From Candidatus Rifleibacteriota bacterium (GTDB lineage: Bacteria; Muiribacteriota; Ozemobacteria; Ozemobacterales; Ozemobacteraceae): a DNA stretch of 44,562 nucleotides. The position numbers and the translations under genes were made by a program. Each line of letters opens with the position of its first letter. Positions within the stretch are counted from its first letter, which is position 1. Below, piece by piece: positions 333-6,618 of this stretch. Location of the stretch: positions 1 through 44,562 of the forward strand of contig JAAYVD010000076.1 in NCBI GenBank assembly GCA_012517355.1, in the 5' to 3' direction. Under the pieces are notes generated by a model that was given only the letters and a program-made list of their open reading frames with translations, was not told the DNA's origin and searched no databases.

Positions 333-420
333 TGACCCGACCGGCACGATGTCGGAAGGGCTTCCCCTTTGCCGCCACGGATCGCGGCGCGAAACGAATG
401 CGTCGCGCATCGCCAGGGGT
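333..420 (+). repeat. REP-like dispersed repeat, copy 1
   Basis: This is a copy of a repeat of about 90 bp built from two short stems: CCGAC...GTCGG followed by GCCGCC...GGCGGC, then a GCGAAAC block. Related copies are at 15902-15995, 19821-19888 (opposite strand), 26553-26640, 34173-34270 and 37575-37620. An ATG at 349 lies inside the repeat and opens the cytochrome frame, which argues against it being the real start. Confidence 0.7.
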
Positions 421-441
421 CCGCCCTGGCCTCCCTCACCC

Positions 442-1449
442 ATGACCGGCATCCCACGCTGTGGGCGCAGCGCCGTTGGGGTGCTGGCCGTCCTCGGCCT
501 TGCCGCGTGCCTCGCCGGAGCCGTCTGGGCGGTGACCGCCAACCTGCGCTTCTCGCACCGCACCCACTATGACCAGAACGTGGCCTGCGAGCGCTGCCAC
601 GTGCTGGCCGACCCCGCCTCGCCACCCCCGACGCCGGCCGGCTGGGTTCCGCTGCAGCCGTCCCGCGTCATGCGCGGCGTGGAACCGGCCGCGGGGGGGG
701 CAGGCGACCCGCTCGCCGACCCCGTCGCCGGTCGCCTGCCCGCGACGCCCGGTGACGGAGCCCCTTCCATCACGATCGACGGTGAGCCCGGCCCGGCCAC
801 CGATTCCGCAGCTGGCACGCCCCCCGGTCCCGCCGCCCTCGACGGCCCACCCGATGCGGCCTCCGCCCCGCCCGCCCTGGCGCCGACCTTCGGCCGGCCC
901 CCCGAGAAGACCTGCCTGACCTGCCACCCGCGCAGCCGGCACGGCAAGGAGTGCGGCCTCTGCCACCTCGGCCGGCCCATGCCCACCGAGCGCGACCGTA
1001 AGAGGCTTCCCGAGGGCATCCGGTTCCCCCACGAAGCGCACAAGGACACCGACTGCCTCGACTGCCACCCCCGCGTCACCGACTGGGAGACCCTCGACGG
1101 CACCATGCAGGACCACCGCATGGAGGGCTGCCTGAAGTGCCACACGGGCGTCAAGGTCAAGCGCGACTGCACCCTGTGCCACGACCCGACCCCGCACCCC
1201 AAGGACCACGTGCGGAACTTCGAGGAGAAGCACGGCCTGGCCTACCGTGCCGACCCGCACCGGTGCCGCACCTGCCACGAGGACTCGAGCTGCGTTGCCT
1301 GCCACGCCCAGCGCCCCCGCAGCCACACCCTGGCCTGGGTCAGCCGCCGCCACGGCCTCACCGCCGCCAGCCGCCCCGACTCCTGCAAGGCCTGCCACAC
1401 CGACCCCGGCGTCTGCCTGCGCTGCCACGACAGCAACCGCTTGCCCTGA
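442..1449 (+). CDS. membrane-anchored decaheme c-type cytochrome
   Basis: The protein has 335 residues and ten CxxCH heme-binding motifs (CERCH, CLTCH, CGLCH, CLDCH, CLKCH, CTLCH, CRTCH, CVACH, CKACH, CLRCH). A single hydrophobic N-terminal segment (about residues 10-32) is either an uncleaved anchor or a signal peptide, so the hemes should face the periplasm. The heme spacing and extra His residues resemble cytochrome c3/c7-type multiheme proteins used in respiratory electron transfer. About 85 Pro/Ala-rich residues separate heme 1 from heme 2, giving an isolated N-terminal heme and a compact nine-heme C-terminal part. The start at 442 is chosen because the upstream in-frame ATG (349) lies in a repeat; no strong ribosome site precedes either one. 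No oxidoreductase partner is adjacent, so the donor and acceptor are unknown. Confidence 0.9.
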   Translation: MTGIPRCGRSAVGVLAVLGLAACLAGAVWAVTANLRFSHRTHYDQNVACERCHVLADPASPPPTPAGWVPLQPSRVMRGVEPAAGGAGDPLADPVAGRLPATPGDGAPSITIDGEPGPATDSAAGTPPGPAALDGPPDAASAPPALAPTFGRPPEKTCLTCHPRSRHGKECGLCHLGRPMPTERDRKRLPEGIRFPHEAHKDTDCLDCHPRVTDWETLDGTMQDHRMEGCLKCHTGVKVKRDCTLCHDPTPHPKDHVRNFEEKHGLAYRADPHRCRTCHEDSSCVACHAQRPRSHTLAWVSRRHGLTAASRPDSCKACHTDPGVCLRCHDSNRLP

Positions 1450-3689: not shown

Positions 3690-5420
3690 ATGGGCACCAC
3701 CATTCTCGGCGTCAACTCCGCCTACCACGAGTCGTCGGTCTGCCTGCTGCGCGACGGCGTCATCCTCAACGCCGTCGAGGAGGAGCGGTTCAACCGCATC
3801 AAGCACGCCAAGCAGAGCCGCGTCGACAACCCCGACGAGCTGCCGGACCAGGCCCTCGAGTGGTCGCTGCGCGCCGCCGGCATCACCCCCGAGCAGATCG
3901 ACCACGTGGCCTTCTCCTTCGATCCCGAGGAACGGCTGCGGGGCAACCGCAACCTGGGGGAACAGGGCATCCCCGCCGGTGACTACGGCACCCCCGAAGG
4001 CGAGGAGACCTTCCACCGCCACCTGTACAAGGCTGCCGCCGAACTGAAGCGCCGCTTCCCCAAGGCCCAGTTCCACTTCCTGCGCCACCATCTCTGCCAC
4101 GCCGCCAGCACCTTCTTCCCCTCGCGCCACGAACAGGCCGCCGTGCTGGCCATCGACGGCATCGGCGAATTCAACACCACCTGGATGGGCATCGGCGAGG
4201 GCAACACCCTGAAGGCCATCCACGAGGTCCCCTATCCGCATTCCCTGGGCTTCGTCTGGGAGCGCATGTCCGAGCACCTCGGGTTCGACGTCTACGGCGG
4301 CCCCGGCAAGGTCATGGGCTACGCCTGCATCTCCGACCCCATCGGCGAGGACAGCGGCATCGACTACGCCGAGCGCTTCCGCCGCGTCATCCGCCTCACC
4401 GACACCGGTTTCACCGTCGACAACGACGTCATGCGGTTCCGCACCCGCGACTTCAGCGGACTCGAACCTCTGTTCGGACCCCGCCGCACCAGCATCGTCG
4501 ACCGGTTCGAGGAGGCCAGCATCGCCGCCGGCCTGCAGACCGTCACCGAAGAGGTCTTCATCCACCTCGCCAAGATCCTGTACCGCAAGACCGGCCTCGA
4601 AGCCCTCTGCCTCGCCGGCGGCGTCGCCCTCAACTGCGTGGCCAACGCCCGCCTCCTGCGCGAGACCCCGTTCAAATACCTGCACGTCATGCCCGCCGCC
4701 AACGACGCCGGCACCGCCGTCGGCGCCGCCGCCTACCTGTGGTGCCAGACGCTCGGGAACAAGACCCGCCCCCGCCTCGACCACACCTACCTCGGCCCCG
4801 AATACACCCCGGCCGAGATCGAAACCGCCCTCGCCACCGCCGGGTTGAAAGCCGGACAACCCGACGACCTGCCCCGCCAGGTCGCCCGCATGGTCTACGA
4901 CGGCAAGGTCGTCGCCTGGTTCCAGGGCCGCCTCGAGTTCGGGCCCCGCGCCCTCGGCAACCGCTCCATCCTGGCCGACCCCAGCCGGTTCGACGTCCGC
5001 TCACGGCTCAACTACAAGGTCAAGGAACGGGAGAGCTTCCGGCCCTTCGCCCCCAGCGTCCTGCCCGGCGACCTCGGCCGCCACCTGCAGGCCCCCGCCG
5101 ACACCGACGCCGCCGAGTACATGCTGCTCGCCCTGCCCGTCGTCGAACCCCGCGACGTCCAGCGCATCCCGGCCGTGGTGCAGGAAAACGGCATCACCCG
5201 CACCGCCACCGCCCGACCCCACGTGGTGCGCCCCGAGGTCAACCCGATCTACGCCCGACTCCTCCAGGAGATGAAGGCCCTGTCCGGCCTCGGCATGGTC
5301 CTCAACACCTCGTTCAACATCAGCGAGCCGATCGTCGCCACCCCCGAACACGCCATCGCCACCTTCCAGAAGTCGCGCATGGACGCCCTCGCCATCGGCC
5401 CCTTCCTCGTCAAACGGTGA
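3690..5420 (+). CDS. NodU/TobZ-type O-carbamoyltransferase
   Basis: The protein has 576 residues, normal for this family. It begins with the ASKHA-fold phrase ILGVNSAYHESSVCLL and an EEERFNR block. It has the metal-binding RHHLCHAAS motif (around residue 132) typical of the Kae1-like carbamoyl-adenylate-forming domain, AIDGIGE, and CLAGGVALNC. It ends with the C-terminal family signatures FGPRALGNRS, VKERESFRPFAPS and LNTSFN. Members move a carbamoyl group from carbamoyl phosphate, through carbamoyl-AMP, to a hydroxyl on a sugar or natural product. No glycosyltransferase or biosynthetic cluster is nearby, so the acceptor is unknown. It has its own promoter and an excellent ribosome site (AGGAGGGGA). 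Confidence 0.92.
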   Translation: MGTTILGVNSAYHESSVCLLRDGVILNAVEEERFNRIKHAKQSRVDNPDELPDQALEWSLRAAGITPEQIDHVAFSFDPEERLRGNRNLGEQGIPAGDYGTPEGEETFHRHLYKAAAELKRRFPKAQFHFLRHHLCHAASTFFPSRHEQAAVLAIDGIGEFNTTWMGIGEGNTLKAIHEVPYPHSLGFVWERMSEHLGFDVYGGPGKVMGYACISDPIGEDSGIDYAERFRRVIRLTDTGFTVDNDVMRFRTRDFSGLEPLFGPRRTSIVDRFEEASIAAGLQTVTEEVFIHLAKILYRKTGLEALCLAGGVALNCVANARLLRETPFKYLHVMPAANDAGTAVGAAAYLWCQTLGNKTRPRLDHTYLGPEYTPAEIETALATAGLKAGQPDDLPRQVARMVYDGKVVAWFQGRLEFGPRALGNRSILADPSRFDVRSRLNYKVKERESFRPFAPSVLPGDLGRHLQAPADTDAAEYMLLALPVVEPRDVQRIPAVVQENGITRTATARPHVVRPEVNPIYARLLQEMKALSGLGMVLNTSFNISEPIVATPEHAIATFQKSRMDALAIGPFLVKR

Positions 5421-5458: not shown

Positions 5459-5602
5459 GGGGAACGCGGCAGCGTTTCCCGCGCCGGCACCCGGGATCCA
5501 AGGGCCTCCGGCCCTTGGTGGGGAGGCCGGGAGGGGCAAAGCCCCTCCCCCCTGGTCTTCCCGCGCCCCCTGGTCTTCCCGCGCCCCCTGGTTTTTCCCG
5601 TT
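5459..5602. repeat. intergenic hairpins plus 18-bp tandem repeat
   Basis: Perfect stems occur at 5498-5506/5510-5518 and 5529-5537/5541-5549. They are followed by two exact 18-bp units (5548-5565 and 5566-5583, CCCCCTGGTCTTCCCGCG) and a third degenerate unit at 5584-5600. The block fills the gap between the carbamoyltransferase and the radical SAM gene and may attenuate or stabilise read-through transcripts (inference). Confidence 0.75.
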
Positions 5603-5646: not shown

Positions 5647-6618
5647 ATGAGCCACGCCAACGGCGATCCGCGCCAACCCGTCTGGGTGGAGCGCGCCCCC
5701 ACCAGCCTCGACGGGCAGCCGACCGACCGCCTGCTGTTCATCTTCCGGGCGGTGGGCTGCACCTACGCCCGCCGCCCGGAAGGCGGTTGCACCATGTGCG
5801 GGTTCACCCCCATGACCCTGCCGGCCGGCCAACTCACAGACGCCGACCTCATCGCCCAGTTCGACTCGGTCTTCGCCGACCCCGCCCGCCTCACCGGCAT
5901 CGGCCAGGCCGACCTCTACATGTCGGGCTCGTTCCTCGCCGACGACGAGATGCCCCCACCCGTCCGCGACCACGTCTTCCGCCGGCTCGCCGCCCTCGGC
6001 CTGCGCCGCGTCCTCATCGAGTCCCGCCCCGAGTTCATCACCGCCGCCGCCCTGCGCGAGGCGGCCGTGCTCCCCCCCGGCGTCCTCGAGGTGGGAATCG
6101 GCCTCGAGAGCGCCGACGACCACATCCGCGAGGTCCTCATCCGCAAGGGCTTCGGCCGCGCCGCCTTCGAACAGGCCGCCGCCCAGCTCGCCCGCGCCGG
6201 CGCCCGCCTCCTCGTCAACGTCCTGCTCAAGCCCCTCGGCGTGACCGACGACGCGGCCGCCGTCGCCGACGCCGTGGCCACCGGCCGCTACGTCTTCGAC
6301 CTGGCCCGCCGCCTGGCCCTGCCCACCCGCGTCGCTTTGCAACCGGTCTTCGTCGCCCCCGGCACCCCCCTCGAGCGCGAGTTCCTGGCCAGTCGCTACC
6401 AGCCCCCAAGCCTCTGGTCCGTCGTCGCCGCCGTACGCGGGCTCCACCCCCTTGGCGAAACCACCGTCGGCCTCAGCGACGAAGGCCTGGAACCGCATCG
6501 CGCCCCCGCCGGCTGCCCCCGCTGCGACGCGGCCTTGCGCACCGCCCTGCGCGAGTTCAACCGCCACCGCTCCCTCGCCGTGTTCGACGGCCTGTCCTGC
6601 CCCTGCCAGAAGGGATGA
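5647..6618 (+). CDS. RaSEA-like radical SAM protein (TIGR01210-type)
   Basis: The protein has 323 residues. The Cys cluster is C-x9-C-x2-C in the form GGCTMCGF near residue 48, matching the GC..GCTMCGY style of the archaeosine-synthesis radical SAM protein RaSEA. Further family landmarks follow in order: SGSFLADDE, IESRPEF, GIGLES, IRKGF, LLKP, and YQPPSLWSV near the C-terminus. A late Cys set (CPRC, CPC) may bind metal. In Archaea RaSEA works with ArcS to make archaeosine at position 15 of tRNA; bacteria do not have archaeosine, so the role here is open. An earlier in-frame ATG (5515) lies in hairpin repeats and encodes low-complexity sequence, so the ATG at 5647 is preferred although its ribosome site is weak. 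Family assignment is by remembered motifs. Confidence 0.8.
   Translation: MSHANGDPRQPVWVERAPTSLDGQPTDRLLFIFRAVGCTYARRPEGGCTMCGFTPMTLPAGQLTDADLIAQFDSVFADPARLTGIGQADLYMSGSFLADDEMPPPVRDHVFRRLAALGLRRVLIESRPEFITAAALREAAVLPPGVLEVGIGLESADDHIREVLIRKGFGRAAFEQAAAQLARAGARLLVNVLLKPLGVTDDAAAVADAVATGRYVFDLARRLALPTRVALQPVFVAPGTPLEREFLASRYQPPSLWSVVAAVRGLHPLGETTVGLSDEGLEPHRAPAGCPRCDAALRTALREFNRHRSLAVFDGLSCPCQKG

Follow-up and report, generated by a model that had tools for sequence, protein, structure and literature searches.

A RaSEA-like radical SAM enzyme and a NodU/TobZ-type carbamoyltransferase encoded side by side in a relative of Candidatus Ozemobacter

The window, that is, the whole stretch of 44,562 nucleotides analyzed here, is part of contig C155 in the 7.1-Mb, 96% complete genome of a relative of Ca. 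Ozemobacter (Riflebacteria). On its forward strand, the gene for a carbamoyltransferase (CT) directly precedes that for a radical SAM protein, and the two genes and their immediate surroundings contain the following features.

3690–5420, forward strand: NodU/CmcH/TobZ-type CT of 576 amino acids, the directly upstream partner, assigned from its Pfam domains and as a relative of TobZ.
5548–5592, no strand: 18-bp tandem repeat (2.5 copies) located within the 226 nt that separate the two genes.
5647–6618, forward strand: RaSEA-like (TIGR01210-related) radical SAM protein of 323 amino acids, with an alternative TTG start at 5515.
5758–5799, forward strand: radical SAM cluster motif C38-X9-C48-X2-C51, its three cysteines invariant in an eight-sequence alignment.
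6514–6606, forward strand: C-terminal CxxC (Cys290, Cys293) and CxC (Cys318, Cys320), a possible metal site.

The true start of the radical SAM gene is uncertain, its frame being open further 5′, and translation from the TTG would yield a protein of 367 amino acids. Elsewhere in the window, a protein that resembles multihaem c-type cytochromes and contains 10 CxxCH motifs is encoded at 349–1449 (forward strand), and a long tandem-repeat region with periods of 202, 45, and 15 bp (1480–1967) separates the cytochrome gene from that of an M20-type hydrolase.

The original prediction had described the protein encoded at 5647–6618 as a RaSEA-type enzyme in a bacterium, based on a series of motifs (GGCTMCGF, SGSFLADDE, ESRPEF, GLES, RKGF, LLKP, and YQPPSLWSV), all of which are present in the 323-residue frame. 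RaSEA is an enzyme whose discovery paper is said to date from 2019. The profile search that had been proposed as a check returned TIGR01210 (RaSEA) as the sole NCBIfam match at E ≤ 0.01, with no better-matching family among the NCBIfam models (E 2e-49, 168.5 bits; protein residues 13–321, profile positions 2–296 of 313). RaSEA is thus the nearest named family, but the equivalog itself is not reached, the curated cut-off being 212.15 bits. Since G010, a relative of the window-like kind (referred to as type A), scores 218.2 bits, the cut-off runs through the type A clade. The host is bacterial, as predicted: the closest named full-length match comes from Ca. Ozemobacter sibiricus (70% identity), and a partial frame in another Ozemobacteraceae record is 79% identical over residues 85–321.

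Pfam reports a sub-threshold Radical_SAM match only, and no solved structure was matched by sequence at E ≤ 0.1. Across an alignment of the window protein with seven relatives, Cys38, Cys48, Cys51, Cys290, and Cys293 do not vary, and the CxC is likewise found at the ends of the complete type A frames inspected and of the proteins of L007, L008, L009, and L040. An AlphaFold2 model computed from the eight-sequence alignment (pLDDT 85.1, pTM 0.87) has a radical SAM fold, so that the protein shares with RaSEA a radical SAM core with three cluster cysteines. Foldseek places Elp3-containing entries at the top, and VIA-align gives comparable Z values for numerous radical SAM enzymes (best 18.1, then about 16), so that the fold alone does not disclose a function.

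The upstream protein contains both Carbam_trans_N and Carbam_trans_C (PF02543, 181 bits; PF16861, 178.7 bits), and TobZ is its best solved relative (E 1e-78). The HHxxHAAS, GPRALGxRS, and KxRExxRPFAPS motifs align with those of TobZ and correspond in the window protein to H133 and H137, GPRALGNRS at 418, and KVKERESFRPFAPS at 443; we take them to be metal- and carbamoyl-phosphate-binding. The protein is not NodU itself, scoring 106 bits against the NodU model NF041651 with its cut-off of 1000, and it is 54–86% identical to the CTs of other type A loci. According to a Nei-Gojobori script, dN/dS amounts to 0.20 and 0.17 for the CT and to about 0.24 and 0.30 for the radical SAM gene, relative to L002 and L003, respectively. 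Both therefore behave as real, constrained genes. The CT is the most informative feature of the locus and had been overlooked in the original prediction.

Pairing of the two genes is conserved in both Ozemobacteria and Myxococcota. A type A enzyme is encoded in 7 of 39 Riflebacteria genomes, directly adjacent to a CT in six of them, and CTs at least 74% identical to that of the window occur in only those six genomes, each directly upstream. In the seventh genome, G017, the first base of the enzyme match is number 193 of a contig, and the search detected no CT; in G012, the CT-paired radical SAM frame is broken. A second arrangement, type C, consists of a kindred CT and a more distant RaSEA-family enzyme. 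It is found in seven further Riflebacteria genomes, where CTs 44–46% identical to that of the window are each directly followed by such an enzyme (TIGR01210 scores of 45–65 bits for the three scanned). In the 39 genomes, each of the 13 full-length CT matches that reach 44% identity is paired. Conversely, a tblastn search (E ≤ 1e-4) that used five radical SAM sequences as queries detected no RaSEA-like partner in the stretch examined at any of 18 other Riflebacteria CT loci (L121–L125, L127–L137, L206, and L207). One further locus, L126, breaks off within its CT, and several more CT matches lie outside the loci covered. Paired loci account for 16 of 60 CT loci overall. One-by-one inspection of TIGR01210 matches in the 39-genome search covered those of about 40 bits and above.

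Type A pairs are also present in Myxococcota, at the loci of G041 and G219 and at L004, and a type C pair is adjacent in one Myxococcota genome. For the phylum to which the Myxococcales record L005 belongs, 282 genomes were surveyed, and the matches listed include seven full-length CTs of at least 44% identity. Three are paired (G041, G219, and G307) and four unpaired: G256, G101, and G131, at 44–47% identity, as viewed in stretches of 18–19 kb, and G229, as viewed in a 3.7-kb locus. A CT lies beside 3 of the 11 fetched TIGR01210 loci in that phylum. From samples of 297 genomes each of the Aminicenantes and Desulfarculus phyla, 30 and 21 loci, respectively, were fetched, and none has a CT alongside (the CT-adjacent L007 is not among the 30); most of these rows are far more distant relatives. 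The RaSEA-like genes of L008 and L009 have no CT nearby, and the genome of L009 has no PF02543 match at all.

At six of the eight type A loci, each from a distinct genome, the CT stop codon and a start codon of the radical SAM frame share a 4-nt overlap, which reads ATGA in L002, L042, and L048 and GTGA in L003, L004, and L005. At L045 (G012), too, there is an ATGA, in the same frame as the first fragment of the broken enzyme. In the window, the overlap is replaced by the 226 nt between the CT stop codon and the ATG at 5647. No third neighboring gene is conserved in the 2-kb flanks (less at contig ends) of the eight loci among ORFs of at least 25 amino acids, beyond the window–L002 and L004–L005 comparisons, the former representing one genus and the latter near-identical sequences. 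A RiPP-type precursor peptide near the pair was considered and rejected, no small ORF of at least 25 amino acids being conserved beyond these same comparisons. A phage origin was likewise discarded: there was no phage match at E ≤ 0.001, and none of 18 pattern matches in viral contigs was confirmed. Titles and abstract openings in the literature searched, with subscription journals mostly outside its coverage, contained no description of this CT/radical SAM pair, and none of the papers covered mentions TIGR01210 by name. Taken together, the two proteins very probably constitute one functional unit.

Phylogenetic analyses address the history of the pairing. A radical SAM tree was built from 38 chosen rows, none of them an archaeal RaSEA. 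Duplicates of one gene, the broken G012 and cut-off G017 sequences, and additional weak rows of the Acidobacteriota type were set aside. Types A and C form clades (98/95 and 100/100, respectively) parted by starred branches, and the label "CT adjacent" changes three times on this tree compared to 12.1 times in shuffles, none of 500 being as low. In a tree of 49 chosen CT loci (quick search, SH-aLRT only), the CTs of both types fall into one clade (SH-aLRT 98), together with the cut-off L126 and three CTs of the Myxococcota sample without an adjacent partner (L140, L141, and L142). On the L142 contig, a weak TIGR01210-like gene is located about 6.6 kb from the CT. The CT of L007 is very distant, on a long branch and 28% identical to the window CT. 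These placements suggest that CTs and RaSEA-family enzymes came together on more than one occasion, though a single gain of the pairing followed by losses is conceivable. A CT of the paired clade (L140, G256:C40:73625-75328; L170) adjoins a divergent putative NRPS gene, with no radical SAM partner directly alongside.

RaSEA-like genes occur in other surroundings as well. In L007 (Aminicenantes), a CT, a RaSEA-like enzyme that exceeds the TIGR01210 cut-off (229.8 bits), and a PLP enzyme are encoded beside a PKS/NRPS gene. The PLP gene comes right after the RaSEA-like gene both there and in L009 (Desulfarculus), the two PLP enzymes being 61% identical; their best NCBIfam matches, both below cut-off, are GntC (hydroxyarginine cyclase) and VioD (capreomycidine synthase). 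A plasmid search for RaSEA-like genes returned two Streptomyces records only. These plasmids, pFRL3 and pFRL5 (L055, 19899–31045; L056, 11851–22995), have in common an uninterrupted series of RaSEA-like, P450, SHMT/transaldolase-like, GT9, CT, GDSL, and heptose-nucleotide genes, possibly an uncharacterized biosynthetic cluster, and one of their RaSEA-like genes scores 172.6 bits to TIGR01210. Two other Riflebacteria genomes, G003 and G002, encode RaSEA-like proteins over the cut-off that are only about 26% identical to the window protein and have no adjacent CT (L040, 8823–10019; L041, 339–1532); the distant relative in L040 additionally gives weak matches to TIGR01211 and TIGR01212. The Aminicenantes-phylum sample includes two genomes in which a RaSEA-like gene adjoins one for a stand-alone protein with a B3/4 domain, a domain of PheRS beta (L174, 3203–5151; L176, 7588–9585). 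The Aminicenantes genome G042 (L173, L174) has three RaSEA-like genes, two of which lie amid NRPS-type genes and genes for B12-type radical SAM proteins, with one example of either kind checked by Pfam. Finally, TIGR01210-like genes of about 100 bits are found in Riflebacteria between or near radical SAM genes that are putatively of B12 type, judging from their N-termini (L049, 7802–9031; L052, 7786–9054; L053, 7470–8735).

The archaeal system offers a template for a model. In archaea, lysine is added by ArcS and the resulting product is converted by RaSEA; both proteins form a complex, and ArcS of T. kodakarensis alone is inactive (PMC11298593). By analogy, a moderately favored model holds that the radical SAM enzyme and the CT share one substrate molecule, in the way that ArcS and RaSEA handle lysine. 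The CT would stand in for ArcS, so that the transferase is exchanged while the logic of attachment followed by a radical step is kept. In such a scheme, the CT would form carbamoyl-AMP from ATP and carbamoyl phosphate and then move the carbamoyl group to an oxygen or nitrogen of the substrate. The radical SAM enzyme, probably in a complex with the CT or close to it, would generate a 5′-deoxyadenosyl radical. Hydrogen abstraction from a carbon close to the modified heteroatom would be followed by cleavage or rearrangement of the bond there. That carbamoylation precedes the radical step is a plausible, tentative assignment, and C–N or C–O cleavage as the outcome is doubtful. Several points speak against the model. 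Adjacency proves neither a common substrate nor the sequence in which the enzymes act, numerous RaSEA-like genes occur without a CT close by, and the CTs of L140, L141, and L142 have no adjacent enzyme. The window pair itself is separated by 226 nt rather than overlapping, and the G012 enzyme frame is interrupted.

The same two enzymes could also work in the reverse order, with the radical SAM protein altering a natural-product or cofactor precursor to which the CT then adds a carbamate. TobZ, NovN, and GdmN act late in antibiotic pathways, and the reversed order gains from the fact that the best-matching solved CTs are such antibiotic-tailoring enzymes and that related radical SAM genes reside in clusters of the PKS/NRPS or heptose-nucleotide type. 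However, the type A pair lacks such company, no conserved genes for scaffold construction having been found in the 2-kb flanks of the eight loci, and the identity of the window CT to those of the Myxococcota loci L004/L005 (70%) and G219 (54%) would be high for late tailoring. We consider this order unlikely, if still a serious contender.

A lower probability is assigned to modification of a nucleic acid, such as a tRNA nucleoside, in which the CT would carbamoylate a nucleoside hydroxyl and the radical SAM enzyme would work on the same residue. Elp3 tRNA enzymes are the nearest folds in Foldseek, the substrate of RaSEA itself is a tRNA, and the module is stand-alone and well conserved. Moreover, 5-hydroxymethylcytosine in DNA is carbamoylated by a CT of the NodU/TobZ superfamily (PMC8670742). 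Yet neither window protein is basic (pI 6.6 and 6.5; the eight type A rows span pI 4.8–8.3 and net charges of −17 to +2), Pfam reports no RNA-binding domain in either, and relatives are found in PKS/NRPS clusters, which together make a nucleic-acid substrate rather improbable.

A carbamoyl-for-lysine variant of the ArcS/RaSEA reaction can be drawn by analogy. A side-chain amine would be converted to an N-alkylurea, as in the homocitrulline-forming step of StdF, and would then undergo C–N cleavage with release of urea to leave a deaminated product; the N-alkylurea would share its shape with the N-alkylamidine substrate of RaSEA. Such a sequence of steps would amount to a novel route for amine removal via a carbamoyl derivative. 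We regard this variant as improbable; weak support for substrates of this type comes from the PLP enzymes encoded after the RaSEA-like genes in L007 and L009, which best match GntC and VioD, below cut-off.

The remaining question is whether the window protein could be a genuine RaSEA. An ArcS was found above the NF040592 cut-off in none of the 39 Riflebacteria genomes, including that of the window, whose 96% completeness leaves some room for a missed gene, compared with all three control genomes, and the 33.6-bit NF040592 match in the window genome falls within its TGT gene. That gene, the only TGT match in the genome, resides on a different contig from the pair and is of the bacterial Q34 type (TIGR00430, 485.6 bits, cut-off 306.75), scoring 117.7 bits against the model of ArcTGT, the archaeal G15 transglycosylase, with its cut-off of 350. 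The expectation that neither ArcS nor TGT would be encoded nearby was accurate, and the survey of tgt, arcS, and queuosine genes that had been suggested revealed the Q34-type TGT and QueC. QueC is present in 25 of the 39 genomes (E below 1e-30; that of G021 in two pieces) and in all seven type A genomes (E below 1e-60), and a full-length QueC is present in one of seven genomes with a type C pair (G007). Hypergeometric chances are 0.03 for type A and 0.005 for type C, assuming independent genomes, which they are not. With six of seven type C genomes lacking full-length QueC, the type C pair seems independent of it, unless 7-deazaguanine is salvaged; for the type A enzyme, a preQ0-derived substrate is conceivable.

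Archaeosine is very unlikely because no ArcS exceeds the cut-off and the sole TGT is of the Q34 type, and it is close to certain that the window pair does not make it. A substrate other than archaeosine, which the original prediction had entertained, is on these grounds likely, but its proposed lysine adduct found no direct support. That a true RaSEA produces archaeosine or another 7-deazaguanine from preQ0 with the help of an unrecognized lysine transferase is highly improbable: TIGR01210 is the sole family matched, and QueC and a TGT are encoded, but the score is below the cut-off, no ArcS passes the cut-off in any of the 39 genomes, the TGT is not an ArcTGT, and most type C genomes show no apparent dependence on QueC. 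An archaeosine role was rejected as the main reading on account of the TIGR01210 score, the ArcS result, the TGT type, and the QueC distribution.

Most likely, the radical SAM enzyme acts on a different molecule than archaeal RaSEA and is easily misnamed; the RaSEA label should not be transferred to it. More generally, the data suggest that the name of a curated "archaeosine" model is being given to bacterial enzymes for which this function is improbable: the L007 relative, which resides in a PKS/NRPS cluster beside a CT, exceeds the cut-off at 229.8 bits. The compact two-gene system is suited to asking how RaSEA-family enzymes choose their substrates and whether, as a rule, they process whatever a partner transferase has newly added. 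Use of a carbamoyl group as a handle for radical bond cleavage would, if true, represent new enzyme chemistry.

In comparison with known systems, the window protein resembles RaSEA in its sole and nearly full-length profile match, its radical SAM core, its size, and its association with a group-transferring enzyme. It differs from the archaeal enzyme, which converts preQ0-Lys15 in tRNA to archaeosine, in its sub-cut-off score, its bacterial host, the lack of a detected ArcS or ArcTGT, and the identity of its partner as a CT. The upstream protein shares both Pfam domains and the active-site motifs with the O-carbamoyltransferases TobZ, NodU, and CmcH; unlike in those, its gene is coupled to one for a radical SAM enzyme. 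Elp3 and the tRNA-modifying radical SAM enzyme MnmL/YtqA are related through their models, and Elp3 provides the nearest solved fold, but the window protein has no TIGR01211 or TIGR01212 match at E ≤ 0.01 and no GNAT domain reported by Pfam. StdF is a NodU-like CT fused to a peptidase that acts on a peptide lysine to give homocitrulline (PMC13174530). The proposed module would resemble it in having a CT that acts before an oxidizing partner, which for StdF is an MNIO working on a RiPP peptide rather than a radical SAM enzyme (PMC13174530).
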